From Deltaproteobacteria bacterium (GTDB lineage: Bacteria > Desulfobacterota > DSM-4660 > Desulfatiglandales > HGW-15): DNA of 12,743 nt. The notes beneath the pieces are model-generated. The model was not told the origin of the DNA. It saw nothing but the letters and a program-made list of their open reading frames with translations, and did not search any database. Made by a program: the position numbers and the translations under genes. The stretch spans positions 1 through 12,743 of the forward strand of contig JAFGPH010000058.1 of assembly GCA_016926135.1 (NCBI GenBank). Reading direction: 5' to 3'. Every line of letters starts with the position of its first letter. Position 1 is the stretch's first letter. Shown piece after piece: positions 2,371-9,515 of this stretch.

Positions 2371-3582
2371 CTAGTCCCGCCGGCCCCATAGCCATATGGA
2401 GCAGACCATCGTGGTTACGAAGATAAAGACGCCGGAGATGCTGAAGGCCGAGAAAAAGCCCATCCGGTCGATGAGGTAGCCGATGAGCGGCGCCAGCACA
2501 CCACCGCCCTCCATGCTGCTGAAGTAGTATATGCCCAGTATCATCGAGCGGTTGTGTGCCGAAGTCTGCCCCACGATGTAGACCTCGGACACAGGCATAC
2601 GCACATAGCTGACCATGCCGAGAAGAAGCATCAAGACACCGAGGACGACCTTATACGGCACCACGCCAAAGAGGAAGATAATGGGCCCGGCGACGAAGCA
2701 CACGGCCAGGATCAGGGGCACGGCGCCCCATCGGTCGGAGAAGTGACCCGCGAGGGGACCGGTCCACAAACCGGTCACGTAGTATATGGCGATGAATGCC
2801 GCGGCCGTCTCTTCACTCGCGCTGAACCTGTCCACGATATATAGGGGTGTAAAGGAGAGCACGGAAAACATCACGGCCTGGGTCAGGGTGCTCAACGTAA
2901 TGAATACAACGAGGCGGCGCAGCCGTCCCGGTTCGGCCGGCGCATCAGCCTGGGCCCCCGGGGCGCCGGCAGCCCCTTTTTTTGCGGTTATACGGCCCAG
3001 GGCGATGTAGAAGAAGATTCCGAAGAGAATGGTCGGGGCCGCCAGCCCCATGAAAGCACCCCGCCAGCCCCAGAAAGCGGCGATACCTGCGGCGATGATC
3101 GGGGCCAGGAAATAGCTGGCACTGCCGCCTATCATGTGGAGCCCCAGTCCCCGACCCAGTTTTTTTGGTTCCACCGCCGCCGCTATAACGGGCGGCGCGG
3201 CCGGATGATAGCCGCCCCCCATCAGCCCCATCAGCCCCATGAATGTGATAAGTGCCCAGTAGGTGGGCGCCAGCCCCACCAGAAACCCGGCCACCGCCAC
3301 GCCGCAGATACCGATGGTGATCATGATGCGCGCACCGACTCGGTCGGTAATCCAACCCGCCGGCACCTGTCCGATGCCATAAGCCAGGTTGAAGGCCGAG
3401 ACCACCAGCCCGGCTCGGGTATAGTCCAGGCCAAAATCCGACCGAATCATGGGCAGCAATGGGATCGGCAATGCCGTCAGCAGATGGTGCCCGAAATGGC
3501 CCAGGACAAATAGCGGCAGCATCCCGGTGAAAAGCCCCCGCCAGCCAGCAGGCCCCAGAAAGTTCGCTTTTGAAGGTTTCAT
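2371..3582 (-). CDS. Major facilitator superfamily transporter
   Basis: Inner-membrane secondary transporter of 403 aa with the layout of a 12-helix MFS protein: two six-helix halves separated by a polar Ala/Pro/Lys-rich loop at about 196-223. The loop between helices 2 and 3 carries an MFS motif A-like segment, GWITDRVGARI (76-86), and the matching loop in the second half reads GHFSDRWGA (279-287). Substrate is not predictable. The frame is open up to 3780, but the extra 66 residues have no membrane or family character, and a strong promoter sits between them and the ATG at 3582, so I reject that extension. There is no Shine-Dalgarno before 3582. A second possible ATG at 3522 would remove 20 residues just before the first helix and remains an alternative. 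No clear terminator follows the stop. Confidence 0.85.
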   Translation of the reverse strand: MKPSKANFLGPAGWRGLFTGMLPLFVLGHFGHHLLTALPIPLLPMIRSDFGLDYTRAGLVVSAFNLAYGIGQVPAGWITDRVGARIMITIGICGVAVAGFLVGLAPTYWALITFMGLMGLMGGGYHPAAPPVIAAAVEPKKLGRGLGLHMIGGSASYFLAPIIAAGIAAFWGWRGAFMGLAAPTILFGIFFYIALGRITAKKGAAGAPGAQADAPAEPGRLRRLVVFITLSTLTQAVMFSVLSFTPLYIVDRFSASEETAAAFIAIYYVTGLWTGPLAGHFSDRWGAVPLILAVCFVAGPIIFLFGVVPYKVVLGVLMLLLGMVSYVRMPVSEVYIVGQTSAHNRSMILGIYYFSSMEGGGVLAPLIGYLIDRMGFFSAFSISGVFIFVTTMVCSIWLWGRRD

Positions 3583-3842: not shown

Positions 3843-4115
3843 TCAGGCTGCGAACGCGGCTTCATGCTTTCCGATGAAGATGATTTTGCCCAACCGGAGT
3901 TTCAGGACGGAGAGATTGGCGTGGAGCACGTCCCGGCCAAAGGGAGACACACGCCTCAGCCCGCTCGTGTCCACGAGAATTCGTTGCGTTTCCTCGATGT
4001 TCCTGCCTATGGCATTCAGCAGGACATGGGCCGAGGAGCCGTCAAAGTCGCCCTTCAGACCGATGTGAAGGTCGCCGTTTTTGCGCTGAAACCGGATTGT
4101 GAAGTTGGACGCCAT
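3843..4115 (-). CDS. Stand-alone STAS-domain protein (anti-sigma factor antagonist-like), atypical phosphorylation site
   Basis: A 90-aa protein that is essentially one STAS domain: strand FTIRF, strand DLHIGLKGDF, helix, strand RILVDTSGL (46-53), then VSPFGRDVL (56-64) and a final strand KIIFIG. In SpoIIAA-type antagonists the loop after the third strand is D-S-[ST]-G, with a serine phosphorylated by an anti-sigma kinase. Here that position reads S-P-F-G (57-60), so the usual phospho-switch seems absent. The ATG at 4115 has GGAGG at a good distance; the longer frame start (4157) does not. It lies 42 bp after the receiver-only regulator and is probably the last gene of that operon. It might act as a binding module in a partner-switching pathway, but no kinase or sigma factor is encoded in the window. 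Confidence 0.75.
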   Translation of the reverse strand: MASNFTIRFQRKNGDLHIGLKGDFDGSSAHVLLNAIGRNIEETQRILVDTSGLRRVSPFGRDVLHANLSVLKLRLGKIIFIGKHEAAFAA

Positions 4116-4157
4116 GAGGATGCCTCCTTTCCCGCGATCATGTGAGTCAAGAGCCAT

Positions 4158-4610
4158 CTAATGCATATCCTGCCACGAAAACCCCATCTGATTCGTGGGG
4201 ACGACCGATCCCCGTTCAGGGGCCTCTCCACGAACAGCGGCAGAGGGGGCTTGGAACCCACCTGCGAGGGCCATCCTTATTCTGAGCTTCAGGTCCGCTA
4301 AATTAGGGCTTTTCACAACGTAGTAATCGGCGGCAATCGACTTCAGGTCGTATTTGAAAGAAGGGTAGGCCGTGCACAGAACAACGGGCAGATCGTAATA
4401 GGTGTTCCGGATGTCCTGGAGAAGATCGAGGCCGTTCGACTGACCCAACCGGATGTCCAGGAGGATGAGATCGGGTCGCGTTTCCTCAATGAGCGATATG
4501 GCTTGAGAGCCATCCCCGGTTGTGATCACCTCGTATCCTTCCTCTGAGAGTTCTTCGGAAAAAAGGATCCGGATCGACTCCTCATCGTCCACCACAAGAA
4601 TCCTATTCAT
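4158..4610 (-). CDS. Receiver-only (CheY/Spo0F-like) response regulator
   Basis: A 150-aa protein with one receiver domain (residues 2 to about 118) and a polar tail of about 30 residues with no output domain. All phosphorylation-site residues are present: acidic pair D8/D9 (VVDDEES), phospho-acceptor D52 (LILLDIRLG), T80 (LCTAY) and K100 (VVKSP). Such proteins relay phosphate or act through protein contacts. The ATG at 4610 has GGAGG just upstream. The frame is open further (to 4715), but that extension overlaps a small gene in another frame whose stop lies inside this start (ATGAATAG), so the shorter form is right. A STAS gene follows 42 bp downstream. The nearby three-PAS kinase is a candidate phosphodonor by proximity only. 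Confidence 0.88.
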   Translation of the reverse strand: MNRILVVDDEESIRILFSEELSEEGYEVITTGDGSQAISLIEETRPDLILLDIRLGQSNGLDLLQDIRNTYYDLPVVLCTAYPSFKYDLKSIAADYYVVKSPNLADLKLRIRMALAGGFQAPSAAVRGEAPERGSVVPTNQMGFSWQDMH

Positions 4611-4764
4611 CTCTCCTCCGGGTTGTCGCGTCTTCCATCGTGGAATCGCGTCTCGATTGAATCTCGATTTCGCAGTCGGGAAACAGGATGCGAAGACATC
4701 TGACCAGAAGCTCATTGATCTGATCTTCTTGGGATGGCTTGGAGAGGAGAAAGATTCTTTCCAA
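4603..4764 (-). CDS. Small protein of 53 aa of unknown function, coupled to the receiver gene
   Basis: A short frame that fills the gap between its neighbours and reads like protein. It starts MERIFLLSKPSQEDQ, continues with a Leu-rich helix-like segment containing RILFPDCEIEI (25-35), and ends in a charged tail. The start is probably TTG at 4764, with AGAGG six bases upstream. An in-frame TTG at 4779 would overlap the TGA of the preceding gene (TTGA) and give 58 aa. The TAG stop lies within the first three codons of the receiver gene (ATGAATAG), so translation is very likely coupled. I know no function. A structured small partner of the receiver or STAS protein is a guess from position alone. 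The main evidence is exact packing between two genes plus sensible composition. Confidence 0.6.
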   Translation of the reverse strand: MERIFLLSKPSQEDQINELLVRCLRILFPDCEIEIQSRRDSTMEDATTRRRDE

Positions 4765-4775
4765 TTCGGGCCTCT

Positions 4776-5024
4776 TCAAGGTTCAAGGCGTTTGCCTTCC
4801 AGGCAGTAGGGACGCCACCAACAGTCCATTTCAGGGCATTCCCCCTGCGGCCTTCGGAAACAGTCGGGGTTTCCCTCGGCACGCTGAATGCTTCTGACCA
4901 GGACCGTCATGTCCACAAAGCTTGTTCTCCGGACGGCGGGGTCTCTCACGCGGGCGGGTGTCGTCGTTCCCTCTCGGTCGCTGATTTGGCCTTCGGATGT
5001 GCTTAACCTGTCTGGATATGCCAT
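4776..5024 (-). CDS. Small four-cysteine protein of 82 aa, possibly metal-binding
   Basis: An 82-aa protein of unknown function. The first 38 residues are polar and probably disordered (DREGTTTPARVRDPA). Then comes VDMTVLVRSIQRAEGNPDCF and a C-terminal cluster, C55-x7-C63-x4-C68-x5-C74, which includes DCWWRPYC. Four regularly spaced cysteines in a small aromatic-rich domain suggest a zinc or other metal site, or disulfides if exported; no signal peptide is seen, so a cytoplasmic metal site is more likely. The ATG at 5024 has AGGAG eight bases upstream. Its stop overlaps, or lies 11 nt before, the start of the 53-aa gene, which in turn overlaps the receiver gene, so it heads a compact four-gene operon. 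I recognise no named family with certainty. Confidence 0.72.
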   Translation of the reverse strand: MAYPDRLSTSEGQISDREGTTTPARVRDPAVRRTSFVDMTVLVRSIQRAEGNPDCFRRPQGECPEMDCWWRPYCLEGKRLEP

Positions 5025-5076: not shown

Positions 5077-5187
5077 ATGAGCCATACAAAACAGCAGGAT
5101 TTGTGGACATACTCTATCACCACCCCTGCCGGCTTTGTCCATAGAGGAAGAATCTCATTTTTCTGGGAGAAAAACCCAGATGGATAG
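5077..5187 (+). CDS. Possible 36-aa small protein on the opposite strand (doubtful)
   Basis: A short frame, ATG at 5077, with AAGGG seven bases upstream, encoding MSHTKQQDLWTYSITTPAGF and a further 16 mostly polar/aromatic residues ending in EKNPDG. It is the only plus-strand candidate between 494 and 8238 and lies wholly in the interval between the four-cysteine gene and the NarL-type regulator. Its last codons form half of a 6-bp hairpin (5162-5180). The ribosome binding site and composition are acceptable, but a frame of this length is common by chance and no promoter is evident. Confidence 0.25.
   Translation: MSHTKQQDLWTYSITTPAGFVHRGRISFFWEKNPDG
5104..5141. repeat. Spaced inverted repeat TGGACA / TGTCCA, possible regulator site
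   Basis: TGGACA (5104-5109) and TGTCCA (5136-5141) are perfect inverted copies whose centres lie 32 bp apart, about three helical turns, between the NarL-type regulator gene and the operon starting at 5024. It could be a binding site for that regulator; this is inference only. Confidence 0.3.
5162..5180. repeat. Hairpin downstream of the NarL-type regulator gene
   Basis: TCTGGG (5162-5167) and CCCAGA (5175-5180) form a perfect 6-bp stem with a 7-nt loop, 30-48 bp after the regulator stop. It lacks a T-run after the stem on either strand, so it is not a standard terminator. Confidence 0.3.
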
Positions 5188-5208
5188 GAATCTGTCCCGA
5201 TCGGCCCT

Positions 5209-5886
5209 CTAATCCTTCCAGAGGTCCACGTCGATCAGGCCCAGCCTTGCGGCGTAGCGGATGAGTTCATGAGAGCTGCTGATACCGAGCTTGCTCATGA
5301 TGCTGGAGCGGTGGTTTTCAACGGTTTTGGGACTGATGAAAAGCCTTTCAGCCACCTCCCTGGAGGAGATCCCTTCGGCCAGCAACCGCATGACCTCCTG
5401 CTCACGGGGGGTGAGGGCGCTGTAAGCGGCATCCGTGATTTTGGTATCCTTTTCAGGAAACTCCACGAGTCTCTTGACCACCTGATGGGAAACGGAGCTA
5501 TCCAGGAAATACTCCCCTTGCGAAACACACCGGAGGGCAGGCAGGAGCCTTTCAGAGGCCGACTCCTTGGTCATGTACCCCACGGCTCCGGCCCGGAAGG
5601 CCTCGGCAATATAGTCGATCTTGGAATGCATGCTGATGATCAGGATGCGCGTCTCTGGAAACAGATGCCGTACCTCCCTTGTCAGCTCGATGCCACTTCG
5701 ATCGGGCAGGGATATGTCCACCAGTACCAGATCGGGCTTGAGATCCTCGGTCATTCGAAGTCCCTCGCGGGCGTCTTTTGCCTCGCCGATCACCTCGAAT
5801 CCGGCTTCCCGGACTATGATGGCCTTCAGTCCTTCCCTGAAAAGGGGATGGTCATCCACGATCAACAGCGTTTTCTTCCGCTCCAA
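5209..5886 (-). CDS. NarL/FixJ-family response regulator (receiver + LuxR-type HTH)
   Basis: A 225-aa DNA-binding response regulator. The receiver domain (about 4-125) has D11/D12, phospho-acceptor D57 (LVLVDISLP), S85 and K107 (GYMTKES). The C-terminal domain has the LuxR-type signature, LTPREQEVMRLLAEG, then VAERLFISPKTVENHRSSIM with the recognition helix. The start is a TTG at 5886 with AGGAG seven bases upstream; the frame is open much further up, but that extension runs inside the kinase gene in another frame. The start lies 35 nt inside the 3' end of the histidine kinase gene, so the two are cotranscribed and probably translationally coupled, making this the kinase's cognate regulator. 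Its targets are unknown; the compact operon just downstream is the nearest candidate. Confidence 0.92.
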   Translation of the reverse strand: MERKKTLLIVDDHPLFREGLKAIIVREAGFEVIGEAKDAREGLRMTEDLKPDLVLVDISLPDRSGIELTREVRHLFPETRILIISMHSKIDYIAEAFRAGAVGYMTKESASERLLPALRCVSQGEYFLDSSVSHQVVKRLVEFPEKDTKITDAAYSALTPREQEVMRLLAEGISSREVAERLFISPKTVENHRSSIMSKLGISSSHELIRYAARLGLIDVDLWKD

Positions 5887-7858
5887 GCTCTCTCTCCTTA
5901 TGGGGAATGCGTATAACGATTTTCGTGCCCTTACCCGGGGCCGACTTGATGTCCATAGCACCGCCCAGCCATCGCACCCGTTCCCCCATGCTGCGAAGCC
6001 CCATGCGCTTCTCGCCGGTAAGGGACCGCTGCCGTTTTTCCACATCGAACCCCATTCCGTCATCCGTGATTCGAAGGATGATGTCGGGGAAGGAGGCCAC
6101 GAGCCTGATGATGACGCGGGTGGCTTTCGCGTGCTTCCTCACATTGATGAGGCCTTCCTGCACAAGGCGGTAAAGGTTGATCTCCGTGTCGGAATCGAGT
6201 TGGAGTTCATCGATCCCAGCGCAGGTGAAGTCTACGACCAGGCCGGTTTTCTGGGAGAAATCTTCGCAGTACTGGTAGATGGACTGCACCAGGCCCAGTT
6301 GATCGAGGCTCGGCGGCCGCAGATCGTAGGCCAGATCGCGCACAGCGGTGATGGTCCCTTGAAGGATTCTGGAGAGGTCCGAGAACTGGTTCTTCGTCTC
6401 CCCGGAGGCTTCCGACCTGGAATCAAGGAGTGTGTCCATCCCGAGCTTGACGGTGGAAAGGTCCTGGGCCACGCGATCGTGGAGTTCCAGGGATATCATC
6501 CGCCTCTCCCTCTCGTGGGCCTTCATGAGTTCCTGGCTGAGGAGGTGAATCTGTTCCTCCGCCTGCTTGGCGCGAGAGATATCAACCCTGATGCCCTGAA
6601 GATGGAGGGGTCTGCCGGTGGAATCCTTCACGATGACCGCCTCGTCTCGCAGCCACACCACGTGACCCTCCCGGTGGAGCATGCGGTATTCGGTGCGGAG
6701 TGGCTCTCCGGTCTCACGGGTGCGGGCGACTTCTGACAGCACCCGGTCCCGATCTTCGGAGTGCAGCTGCCTCCGCCAGATATCGGGGTACCTGCTGCAC
6801 TCCGATTGGGTGAATCCGACCATGCCCTCGATTTGGGGACTCACGTACAGGGTGGTGCCGGCCTCGTCGAGTTCGGTGGAATAGGTGACGGCGGGGATCT
6901 GCTCGACGAGCAGGCGATACCTGGCCTCGCTCTCCCGCAGGGCCTGCTCCATACGCCTTTGGGCGGTAACATTCCTGGCGACCTGAACAAGACCGGTGAT
7001 CTCTCCCGCCTCATTCTTGAGGGGCACGGAGTAGTTATCCCAATAGGTCCCGCCTGCGATCCCTCCCGCACCGGGCTGATACATAACAGCCCTTTCGATC
7101 CGGCCGGTCTCCCTTGCCCTGAGGGTGGGGCACCCCACACAGGGGGTGTCGCGGCCGCTCAGGGCCTTATAGCAGGTCTTGCCCACCAGTTCTTCGGGAG
7201 CCCTATGGAGCGATGAGGCCGTATTCTTGTTGGCCCAGATGATCCTCAGGTCCTTGTCCACAATCCGGATCCTGTCGATGGATGCGTCAAGAATGGCGCG
7301 TTTCTGGGCTTCGCTTTCAAGGTGCGCCTGTTCCGCCCGCCTTCGCTCGGTGATATCCCGGATGATGGCCACGTAACCCTGGACGGACCCGTCGGAGGAT
7401 TTCATCGCCGATGTAACCGTCTCCACGGGGAAGGGGGTGCCGTCCCTGTTCACGAATTCCCATTCCGTCCTGCAGGTGCCAGAGGCCCTGATGACCGGAT
7501 AGATCTTGTCCCCGAAATCACGGTAGCTCATGTCCGATCCGTGAATGATCCTGATGGACTGACCACCTACCTCGCTCCTTGCATAGCCAAAGAGCTGCAG
7601 GAAGGCCTCGTTGCAGGAGAGGACTCTCCTCTGCGGATCAAGGATCAGGATCGCGTCAGATGAGCTCTCCACCAGGGTGCTGTAGCTTTCTTCGCTCGCC
7701 CTGAGCGCCTCCTGGGCAGCCTTGCGTTTGACGATCTCCTGCTGCAATCGCCGGTTTTGCTCTTCGAGCAGGACCTTTATCGAATCGATGCTCGGCCGTG
7801 AATCGTCGACGATGAGTATGCTGCCTTTCCGGCTGTCTTCATCCATGCGCTTCTCCAT
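5852..7858 (-). CDS. Soluble three-PAS sensor histidine kinase (HisKA_3/NarX-UhpB type) with a vestigial receiver start
   Basis: A 668-aa kinase without membrane segments, hence a likely cytoplasmic sensor. Residues 10-33 (SILIVDDSRPS...) look like the first strand and helix of a receiver domain, but this runs straight into a coiled coil (34-58). Three PAS domains follow, at about 58-175, 185-305 and 312-432. The second has C229, C240 and C243 (CYKALSGRDTPCVGCP). The HisKA_3 dimerisation domain has phospho-acceptor H460 (LELHDRVAQDL). The HATPase domain shows the N box (N572 in GLINVRKHA), DDGMGF (599-604) and GLRSMGERV. This subclass pairs with NarL-type regulators, and one overlaps its 3' end. 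ATG 7858 has GGAG upstream; ATG 7846 also has one and is possible. A consensus promoter lies about 210 nt upstream. Confidence 0.93.
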   Translation of the reverse strand: MEKRMDEDSRKGSILIVDDSRPSIDSIKVLLEEQNRRLQQEIVKRKAAQEALRASEESYSTLVESSSDAILILDPQRRVLSCNEAFLQLFGYARSEVGGQSIRIIHGSDMSYRDFGDKIYPVIRASGTCRTEWEFVNRDGTPFPVETVTSAMKSSDGSVQGYVAIIRDITERRRAEQAHLESEAQKRAILDASIDRIRIVDKDLRIIWANKNTASSLHRAPEELVGKTCYKALSGRDTPCVGCPTLRARETGRIERAVMYQPGAGGIAGGTYWDNYSVPLKNEAGEITGLVQVARNVTAQRRMEQALRESEARYRLLVEQIPAVTYSTELDEAGTTLYVSPQIEGMVGFTQSECSRYPDIWRRQLHSEDRDRVLSEVARTRETGEPLRTEYRMLHREGHVVWLRDEAVIVKDSTGRPLHLQGIRVDISRAKQAEEQIHLLSQELMKAHERERRMISLELHDRVAQDLSTVKLGMDTLLDSRSEASGETKNQFSDLSRILQGTITAVRDLAYDLRPPSLDQLGLVQSIYQYCEDFSQKTGLVVDFTCAGIDELQLDSDTEINLYRLVQEGLINVRKHAKATRVIIRLVASFPDIILRITDDGMGFDVEKRQRSLTGEKRMGLRSMGERVRWLGGAMDIKSAPGKGTKIVIRIPHKERELGAEENAVDRG

Positions 7859-8237: not shown

Positions 8238-9515
8238 GTGAAAAGGACGGTCTCTTTCGACTGGTGGCTCTCGGGATTCTGCCTCTCCAGGTCGCTGACC
8301 CAGGCCATCACCATGACCTATGCCGCAGCCATTCCCGTTCTGCAACAGGAATGGGGGATGACGGCGGCCAGGGCAGGAACCGTCTCCAGCGGCTTTCAAC
8401 TGGGCTACGGGGTCTCCCTGCTGGTGATCTCGATCCTCGCGGACAGGTGGGGGGCCAAGGTCCTGTACCTGTGGTCCATGATCGGCACCGCGCTTTTCTC
8501 CCTTGCCTTTGCCCTCTTTGCCCGCGATCACATTTCCGCCCTGGCCCTTTACACCGTGGTGGCCCTGTCCCTCGGAGGTAATTACACAACCGGTCTCATG
8601 ATTCTTGCCCTCAGATACCCTGTCGAGAGGAGGGGCAGGGCAACGGGTGCCTTCATTGCGAGTTCTTCCCTAGGATACGTGCTCTCCCTCGCCCTGAGCG
8701 GCTTCACGATCCCCATAGGGGGCTACCGTCTCTCTTTCCTGGCAGCCTCCCTGGCCTCGGTGATCGGCTGTGTGCTTTCCTGGATCGTTCTCGGAAGAAC
8801 GGAACTCCCGGCGGACGGTCGCACGCAAAGGCCGACCCTGCGAGGTGAAGTGCTCTCCAACAGGCCCGCCCTGCTCCTGATCGGCGCGTATACGTGTCAC
8901 TGCTGGGAACTGCTGGGAATGTGGGCGTGGACCCCGGCCTTTCTGAGCAGTTATTTCGTCCTGAAGGGCGTGGCCGGAACGGGGGCCGCCGGGCTCGGAT
9001 CCTACGCGGCCGCAGCCTTTCACATGGCAGGCATTTTCGCTTCCTTCTGGATGGGCGGCCTGTCTGACCGGCTGGGCCGCGGACGCGTGATCATGGGGGC
9101 GGCAGGGGCGAGCGCATTGTGCTCGTTCGTTTTTGGATGGTCCATCGGGTGGCCCCTGGTCGTTGTGCTGCTCATCGGCCTCGTGTATGCCTTCTCTTCC
9201 ATCGGAGACTCCCCGGTTCTCTCCGTAGCACTGACGGAGGTCGTTTCGCCCTCCTATCTCGGGCGGGTCTTCGGGCTCAGGTCCATGCTGGGATTCGGGG
9301 CCGGCGCCGTCTCTCCGGTGGTGTTTGGGGCCGTGCTGGATTGGACAAACCCCTCGACTGCGGGAGCCGGGCCCTATGCAATCTGGGGATGGGCCTTTGT
9401 CACGCTCGGGTTTCCGGGTGTGGGCGCCTTCTGGGGCGCGCATCTCTTCAGGAAGAGCCGCGAGGCGCCTCCTCGTATCCCGAATCCGGTTCGTCAGGCT
9501 GGACCAGCAGGGTGA
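8238..9515 (+). CDS. Major facilitator superfamily transporter (second, unrelated copy)
   Basis: A 425-aa inner-membrane transporter with about 12 hydrophobic helices and a central polar loop at about 187-209. MFS motif A-like loops are visible in both halves: ADRWGAK (68-74) and GGLSDRLGRGR (273-283). It differs clearly in sequence from the MFS protein at 2371-3582. The N-terminal region around SRSLTQAITMTYAAAIPVL is the expected first helix. Substrate is unknown. The GTG start has AAGGAG ten bases upstream. The cytoplasmic C-terminal tail (about the last 22 residues, Pro/Arg-rich) is encoded on DNA that also encodes, on the opposite strand, the end of the NfeD-like gene. It is the only confident complete plus-strand gene in the window and is divergent from the kinase operon. 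Confidence 0.88.
   Translation: MKRTVSFDWWLSGFCLSRSLTQAITMTYAAAIPVLQQEWGMTAARAGTVSSGFQLGYGVSLLVISILADRWGAKVLYLWSMIGTALFSLAFALFARDHISALALYTVVALSLGGNYTTGLMILALRYPVERRGRATGAFIASSSLGYVLSLALSGFTIPIGGYRLSFLAASLASVIGCVLSWIVLGRTELPADGRTQRPTLRGEVLSNRPALLLIGAYTCHCWELLGMWAWTPAFLSSYFVLKGVAGTGAAGLGSYAAAAFHMAGIFASFWMGGLSDRLGRGRVIMGAAGASALCSFVFGWSIGWPLVVVLLIGLVYAFSSIGDSPVLSVALTEVVSPSYLGRVFGLRSMLGFGAGAVSPVVFGAVLDWTNPSTAGAGPYAIWGWAFVTLGFPGVGAFWGAHLFRKSREAPPRIPNPVRQAGPAG

Follow-up and report, generated by a model that had tools for sequence, protein, structure and literature searches.

Genes and control region of the locus

The locus lies on the minus strand of the window, the whole stretch of 12,743 nucleotides that was analysed. 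Genes for a sensor kinase and a NarL-type regulator are followed there, after 184 bp, by genes for an 82-residue four-cysteine protein, a 53-residue protein, a receiver-only response regulator and a STAS-domain protein, in that order. The features are listed below.

5852..7858, minus strand: soluble histidine kinase of 668 amino acids with PAS domains, HisKA_3 and HATPase_c (Pfam scan)
5209..5886, minus strand: NarL-type response regulator, receiver plus LuxR/GerE HTH (Pfam, orthologs), with an assumed TTG start codon at 5886
5187..5198, minus strand: upstream element 1, GGGACAGATTCC, centred about -86 from the predicted start (sequence reading, site family)
5163..5179, minus strand: upstream element 2, inverted repeat CTGGG-N7-CCCAG, centred about -65
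5135..5161, minus strand: conserved core AAAWTGA-N10-CTATRGACAA, perfect match, containing the predicted -35 TGGACA (5141-5136)
5113..5118, minus strand: predicted -10 GATAGA, 17 nt after the -35 (sequence reading)
4776..5024, minus strand: four-cysteine protein, 82 amino acids, C-x7-C-x4-C-x5-C; branch of a SAP/Rho_N-like family
4603..4764, minus strand: 53-amino-acid protein of an unnamed family with the signature LFPECEIEI, predicted beta-alpha-beta; TTG start at 4764
4158..4610, minus strand: receiver-only response regulator, 150 amino acids, with acidic pair, Asp52 and Lys100
3843..4115, minus strand: single STAS-domain protein, 90 amino acids, in which SPFG replaces the phospho-serine segment

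The kinase and the regulator are ordinary parts. A kinase with HisKA_3 and HATPase_c beside a regulator with receiver and LuxR-type HTH, as Pfam finds here, has exactly the domains of NarX/NarL-type systems, and inverted-repeat regulator sites upstream of the -35 would also fit this type; in contrast, no known member was found with a four-cysteine/53-residue/receiver/STAS operon behind a regulator-type promoter. By eye, the kinase starts with a segment (ILIVDDSRPSIDSIKVLLEEQ) resembling strand 1 and helix 1 of a receiver, which continues directly into a coiled coil.

A first-pass annotation of this DNA had described positions 3843 to 5024 as a compact module of four small genes. The open reading frame coordinates and a reading of the sequence bear out all four on the minus strand, together with the exact ATGAATAG overlap between the 53-residue gene (to 4603) and the receiver gene (from 4610) and the 42-bp gap before the STAS gene. 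The overlapping TTGA start that had been suggested for the 53-residue gene (4779) is possible and less likely than the TTG at 4764, since the family alignment begins at the latter, with AAGAGG standing 6 nt on its 5' side. For the STAS gene a longer start at 4157 is possible; its family alignment begins at 4115. On reading the sequence, a purine-rich ribosome-binding site precedes the family-favoured start of all four small genes. Relatives of each exist elsewhere (30 loci for the 82-residue protein, 109 proteins in the 53-residue family, seven aligned relatives of the receiver, and STAS-family matches at E<=1e-12 in 24 of 395 genomes of the phylum), and none of the four is therefore a chance reading frame.

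The core is perfect at 5161-5135, and this is its sole occurrence in the window at up to three mismatches. TGGACA, in place of which other sites have TAGACA or TTGACA, is followed after about 17 nt by a hexamer like GATAAT; together they read as a sigma-70-like promoter, from which transcription would start near 5106. A simple promoter scan of the window does not list the predicted -35/-10 pair, because both hexamers are weak. CTATGGACA was considered as a -10 and is more likely a -35, given its spacing to GATAAT and the TTGACA variants. The conserved intergenic block was also considered as an RNA leader, and the window gave no Rfam match.

An MFS transporter gene stands on either side of the signalling block as a whole, at 2371-3582 and at 8238-9515; the first of them lies 260 bp beyond the STAS gene if its start is at 3582. 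Further out lie a VapB/VapC-type toxin-antitoxin pair (589-1259; Pfam PIN and VapB_antitoxin), a single protein that fuses nucleotidyltransferase and HEPN domains (1409-2185; Pfam) and a reading frame (18-416) that resembles the C-terminal part of a tyrosine recombinase. The 12,743 nt hold no tRNA.

Conservation of the gene group and its promoter

Together with the sensor kinase and the DNA-binding regulator, the four genes form a group met repeatedly among relatives of sulfate-reducing bacteria. In this comparison the nearest relatives of the window's host are Desulfobacterota. With the 82-residue protein alone as query, genome contigs were scanned at one genome per species (84,980 species), which gave 30 loci: 19 closest, titled Deltaproteobacteria, Desulfobacterales or Desulfobacteraceae, and 11 of SAP type. 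Among the 19, some of whose contigs end too soon, 16 have a close LuxR relative immediately before the four-cysteine gene, 11 have a receiver-only gene downstream of it, eight a STAS gene, and two have a 53-residue gene nearby. The SAP-type loci, unlike the window's branch, are not beside a LuxR gene, and none of the 11 has the LuxR, receiver, STAS or 53-residue gene (some contigs end too soon to tell).

The receiver, STAS and 53-residue genes join the four-cysteine gene in varying order, and the content differs between genomes. One other locus, L148, holds all six genes in the window's order (kinase, LuxR, four-cysteine, 53-residue, receiver, STAS), while L147, L149, L150 and L151 hold subsets or other orders. 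The first-pass annotation had named as its own refutation that the four genes be found together in no other genome; they do recur together, and at L148 in the same order. Its four-gene arrangement stands, and its boundary does not: the conserved unit also takes in the upstream kinase and LuxR regulator. Proximity was assessed in all 85 genomes of one class, with a random expectation that assumes 3.5-Mb genomes. In 16 of 32 cases a STAS gene stands no more than 3 kb from the 82-residue gene, always on the same strand (0.08 expected), and the 53-residue gene is near a STAS gene in four of 25 (0.06 expected) and near an 82-residue gene in four of 25 (0.03 expected).

The promoter is conserved with the genes. 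In the stretches between the LuxR and 82-residue genes the commonest 7-mer occurs in 14 of 23, against at most nine in 50 shuffles, several of these loci being close kin. Alignment of the stretches brings out GGGAyAAATTCCC, TAGGGGTTTCCCCTA or a similar inverted repeat, AAAATGA-N10-CTATRGACAA and an AT-rich -10 region. Across 22 sites the two upstream elements pair on average at 4.09 and 4.00 of five positions, above 500 shuffles, which average 3.56 and 3.26 and reach at most 3.95 and 3.73.

Core sites in other genomes and the regulator ortholog

The promoter also recurs before stress-type genes. The core was searched for in 26 genomes chosen for holding module families, where scans at two mismatches had too much background to be of use (135 matches, and 84 for the control). 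In four genomes (G001, G003, G006 and G009) we read all 17 sites with at most one mismatch that do not precede a four-cysteine gene. The upstream elements, absent from the search pattern, score above the 99th percentile of 20,000 random windows at all 17; among non-module sites of another class, one of six passes. The genes at the 17 sites encode CFA synthase (two genomes), glycogen synthase (two genomes), an AMPK-type glycogen-binding protein, a cold-shock protein, Hsp20, a Usp pair, a GYD protein and weakly PilZ-like proteins; the remainder are a molybdopterin oxidoreductase, a HisKA_3 kinase, a TPR-like protein, a small Cys protein, a STAS protein and one contig end. Sites with two mismatches precede dodecin-kinase-LuxR genes (two genomes) and DUF547/phosphoglucose isomerase.

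Another 21 sites, hand-picked from six further genomes, again include cold-shock (two), Hsp20, GYD, Usp, PilZ-like, TPR and cNMP-binding proteins, alongside a four-cysteine/receiver/STAS operon and genes of no clear kind. The upstream-element score is passed by 17 of the 21, the four that fail including L310 (Hsp20) and L319. Recurrent neighbours first suggested the link to stress and are excluded from the evidence, and the window itself holds no stress gene with a core site. In G003, contig C71, a stress-gene island at 157-195 kb (L205, L206) carries seven core sites with at most two mismatches in about 33 kb; behind them are the module and genes for PilZ-like, CFA synthase, glycogen-binding, dodecin and STAS proteins.

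Core sites co-occur with the regulator ortholog, defined as a match to the window regulator at E<1e-70 and present in 73 of the 192 genomes of one class. At up to one mismatch this class gives 126 core matches in 56 genomes, against 46 for a reversed control pattern, and 44 perfect cores in 23 genomes. The ortholog is found in 22 of these 23, against 73 of 192 overall (Fisher p=1e-9, kinship ignored); G640 is the sole perfect-core genome that lacks a match. The four-cysteine gene and the ortholog occur together in 47 of 57 genomes (p=1.5e-16, kinship ignored). G633, whose match (E=6e-52, 61% identity) runs into the end of its contig, was scored as lacking the regulator. Against a link between core and regulator count the 51 of 73 ortholog genomes without a perfect core. 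The upstream-element score divides the 29 sites read from this class into 14 that pass and 15, including three with perfect cores, that do not. Across the 85 genomes of the class used for the proximity counts, the core with up to one mismatch matches 19 times and the control 15 times; 13 of the 19 lie at modules, so that no wider regulon is visible there.

From this analysis we think it probable that the four genes serve as accessory operon to a self-controlling NarL-type two-component system with a general-stress-like regulon. The PAS/HisKA_3 kinase would phosphorylate the LuxR-HTH regulator, which would bind both upstream elements (about -86 and -65) and activate the sigma-70-like promoter before the four-cysteine gene; the two-component system would thereby control its own accessory genes. 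The phosphorylated regulator would also activate a regulon for stress and storage (cold shock, Hsp20, Usp, glycogen, CFA synthase and GYD). We infer DNA binding by the regulator, the signal and all roles given to the four proteins.

The sites might instead be bound by another factor, either a different regulator or an alternative sigma factor, in which case the LuxR gene would merely adjoin one target and the operon would be one regulon member among others. The -35/-10 within the conserved promoter is a consensus reading, and the perfect core of G640, without an ortholog, is what such a factor would allow. The ortholog in the other 22 of 23 perfect-core genomes, the repeated placement of the site just after the LuxR gene and the inverted symmetry towards which the upstream elements tend, and which a dimeric regulator would lead one to expect, all argue against it, and we regard this explanation as unlikely.

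With the NarL-type regulator as the candidate, the conserved control sequence may mark an undescribed stress circuit. We found little in print on general-stress or carbon-storage control in sulfate reducers and their uncultured kin, and this control can now be tested directly through the conserved promoter, the candidate regulator and the small accessory set.

The four small proteins and their proposed roles

The cysteines of the 82-residue protein (residues 55, 63, 68 and 74) are invariant across 29 aligned sequences, and the pattern C-x7/8-C-x4-C-x5-C is present in 120 of 120 relatives, the best 120 of 2750. Distant members have a SAP/Rho_N-like N-terminus: all five that were scanned match Rho_N, one of them above the curated cut-off. 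The window protein itself has no Pfam match and hence cannot be called a SAP/Rho_N protein. It shares the LIRSIQRAEGN block and the four-cysteine pattern with the SAP/Rho_N small proteins of Nitrospirota and Geobacter, and differs from them in that its branch lacks the first SAP part and the Pfam match. A structure model (pLDDT 65) gave no match of weight in a structural search. The protein may sense or report a metal or redox state. Another small cysteine protein, of MISSPCKNC type (64-69 residues), stands directly behind a core site at L206, L214 and L224, and has no Pfam match where scanned (L214).

The 53-residue family comprises 109 proteins and has neither a name nor a Pfam model. A structure model (pLDDT 71) predicts a beta-alpha-beta core, for which Foldseek returned no match at E<=0.001; a PDB sequence search with the family gave at best E=0.0072, to part of the UPF0201 protein AF_1395. 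Within one group of true receivers, represented by the stand-alone receiver at L170:1222-1590 on the minus strand, the family profile finds a match at residues 1-30 (E=4.3e-6 in a single genome out of 395; hhalign 26-31%). In a search of 58 relatives of that receiver, 15 match at E<1e-4, of which 14 are mutual close kin. The receivers and regulators of the modules compare with the family at hhalign probabilities of 1.4% and at most 4%, and none of 39 family members has a Pfam receiver match. Receiver ancestry of the family is possible, and we suggest it tentatively; a 53-residue protein that was a receiver fragment would naturally imitate the surface at which a kinase docks. By eye, the C-terminus of one family protein, P0092, reads like the end of a STAS protein, as in a 53-residue/STAS fusion.

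The 150-residue protein is, by its sequence, a single-domain response regulator. PF00072 covers residues 4-111 (E=1e-22), and D8, D9, D52 and K100 are invariant in eight receiver sequences; the receiver stands alone with acidic pair, phospho-Asp and Lys all present, as the earlier description of a phosphorylatable receiver without output had it. That description had also given the STAS protein no phospho-serine, and SPFG-type residues do take the place of the TM1442/RsbS phospho-serine segment across the family, with P58 at the site in at least 90% of 10 relatives. The Pfam STAS match (E=0.0054) is below the family cut-off.

The STAS protein raises the question of partner switching, in which it would act on a sigma factor, either as an anti-anti-sigma factor or within a stressosome, and would be bound or set free by the receiver-only protein. 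Its profile weakly matches TM1442 (E=0.004) and RsbS (E=0.12) over the whole STAS domain, and a two-component system that acts on STAS-type anti-sigma antagonists is known in RsfSR of Mycobacterium smegmatis (PMC10950880). In RsfSR the receiver forms one protein with a PP2C phosphatase, and the STAS protein undergoes phosphorylation (PMC10950880); the present receiver stands by itself, and Pro occupies the STAS site. The window protein has no phosphorylatable Ser/Thr in a DSSG-type loop, as SpoIIAA/RsbV would, and its RsbS match is not specific, with the Ser replaced. A Pfam scan of 16 window proteins found no RsbW-type kinase, PP2C phosphatase or sigma factor, and neither RsbT nor RsbR was seen in the window. 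Partner switching is accordingly improbable.

As accessory proteins of the NarL-type system, the receiver-only protein would most likely take the kinase phosphate, as sink or relay, and the STAS and 53-residue proteins would adjust signalling by binding partners. In a more specific version, which we offer as speculation with the odds well against it, this would be an undescribed general-stress system of Desulfobacterota, with a cytosolic kinase, a NarL-type activator on a two-site promoter and a feedback operon. Its 53-residue protein would be a stripped receiver (beta1-alpha1-beta2, no phospho-Asp) occupying the docking face of the kinase, the receiver-only protein would drain phosphate, and the unphosphorylatable STAS protein would hold its partner by default.

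A search of the literature, with few subscription journals covered, gave no such gene set or promoter, in agreement with the earlier remark that no system of this composition had been described. Another two-component system of a sulfate reducer tied to stress genes, DVU3303-3305 of Desulfovibrio vulgaris, has a second regulator that carries a Lon protease, and the part of its account available describes neither a four-gene module nor such a LuxR/NarL regulator (PMC3333781).

The first-pass reading of a free-standing four-protein unit, signalling by contacts among its members and without the adjoining kinase and regulator, draws on the compact arrangement and on families found together beyond chance, and is very doubtful: the LuxR and kinase genes, not the other three, are the most constant neighbour of the four-cysteine gene, and 12 of 25 53-residue loci and 33 of 61 STAS loci (12 of the 61 from genomes chosen for holding the module) have no module family within 1.5 kb. 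The four genes appear instead as an operon of variable content that adjoins a NarL-type two-component system and has its own conserved promoter. In some modules a further small helical protein, whose L012 copy gives no Pfam match above cut-off, follows the STAS gene (L012:9017-9289, L011:9882-10148 and L237).
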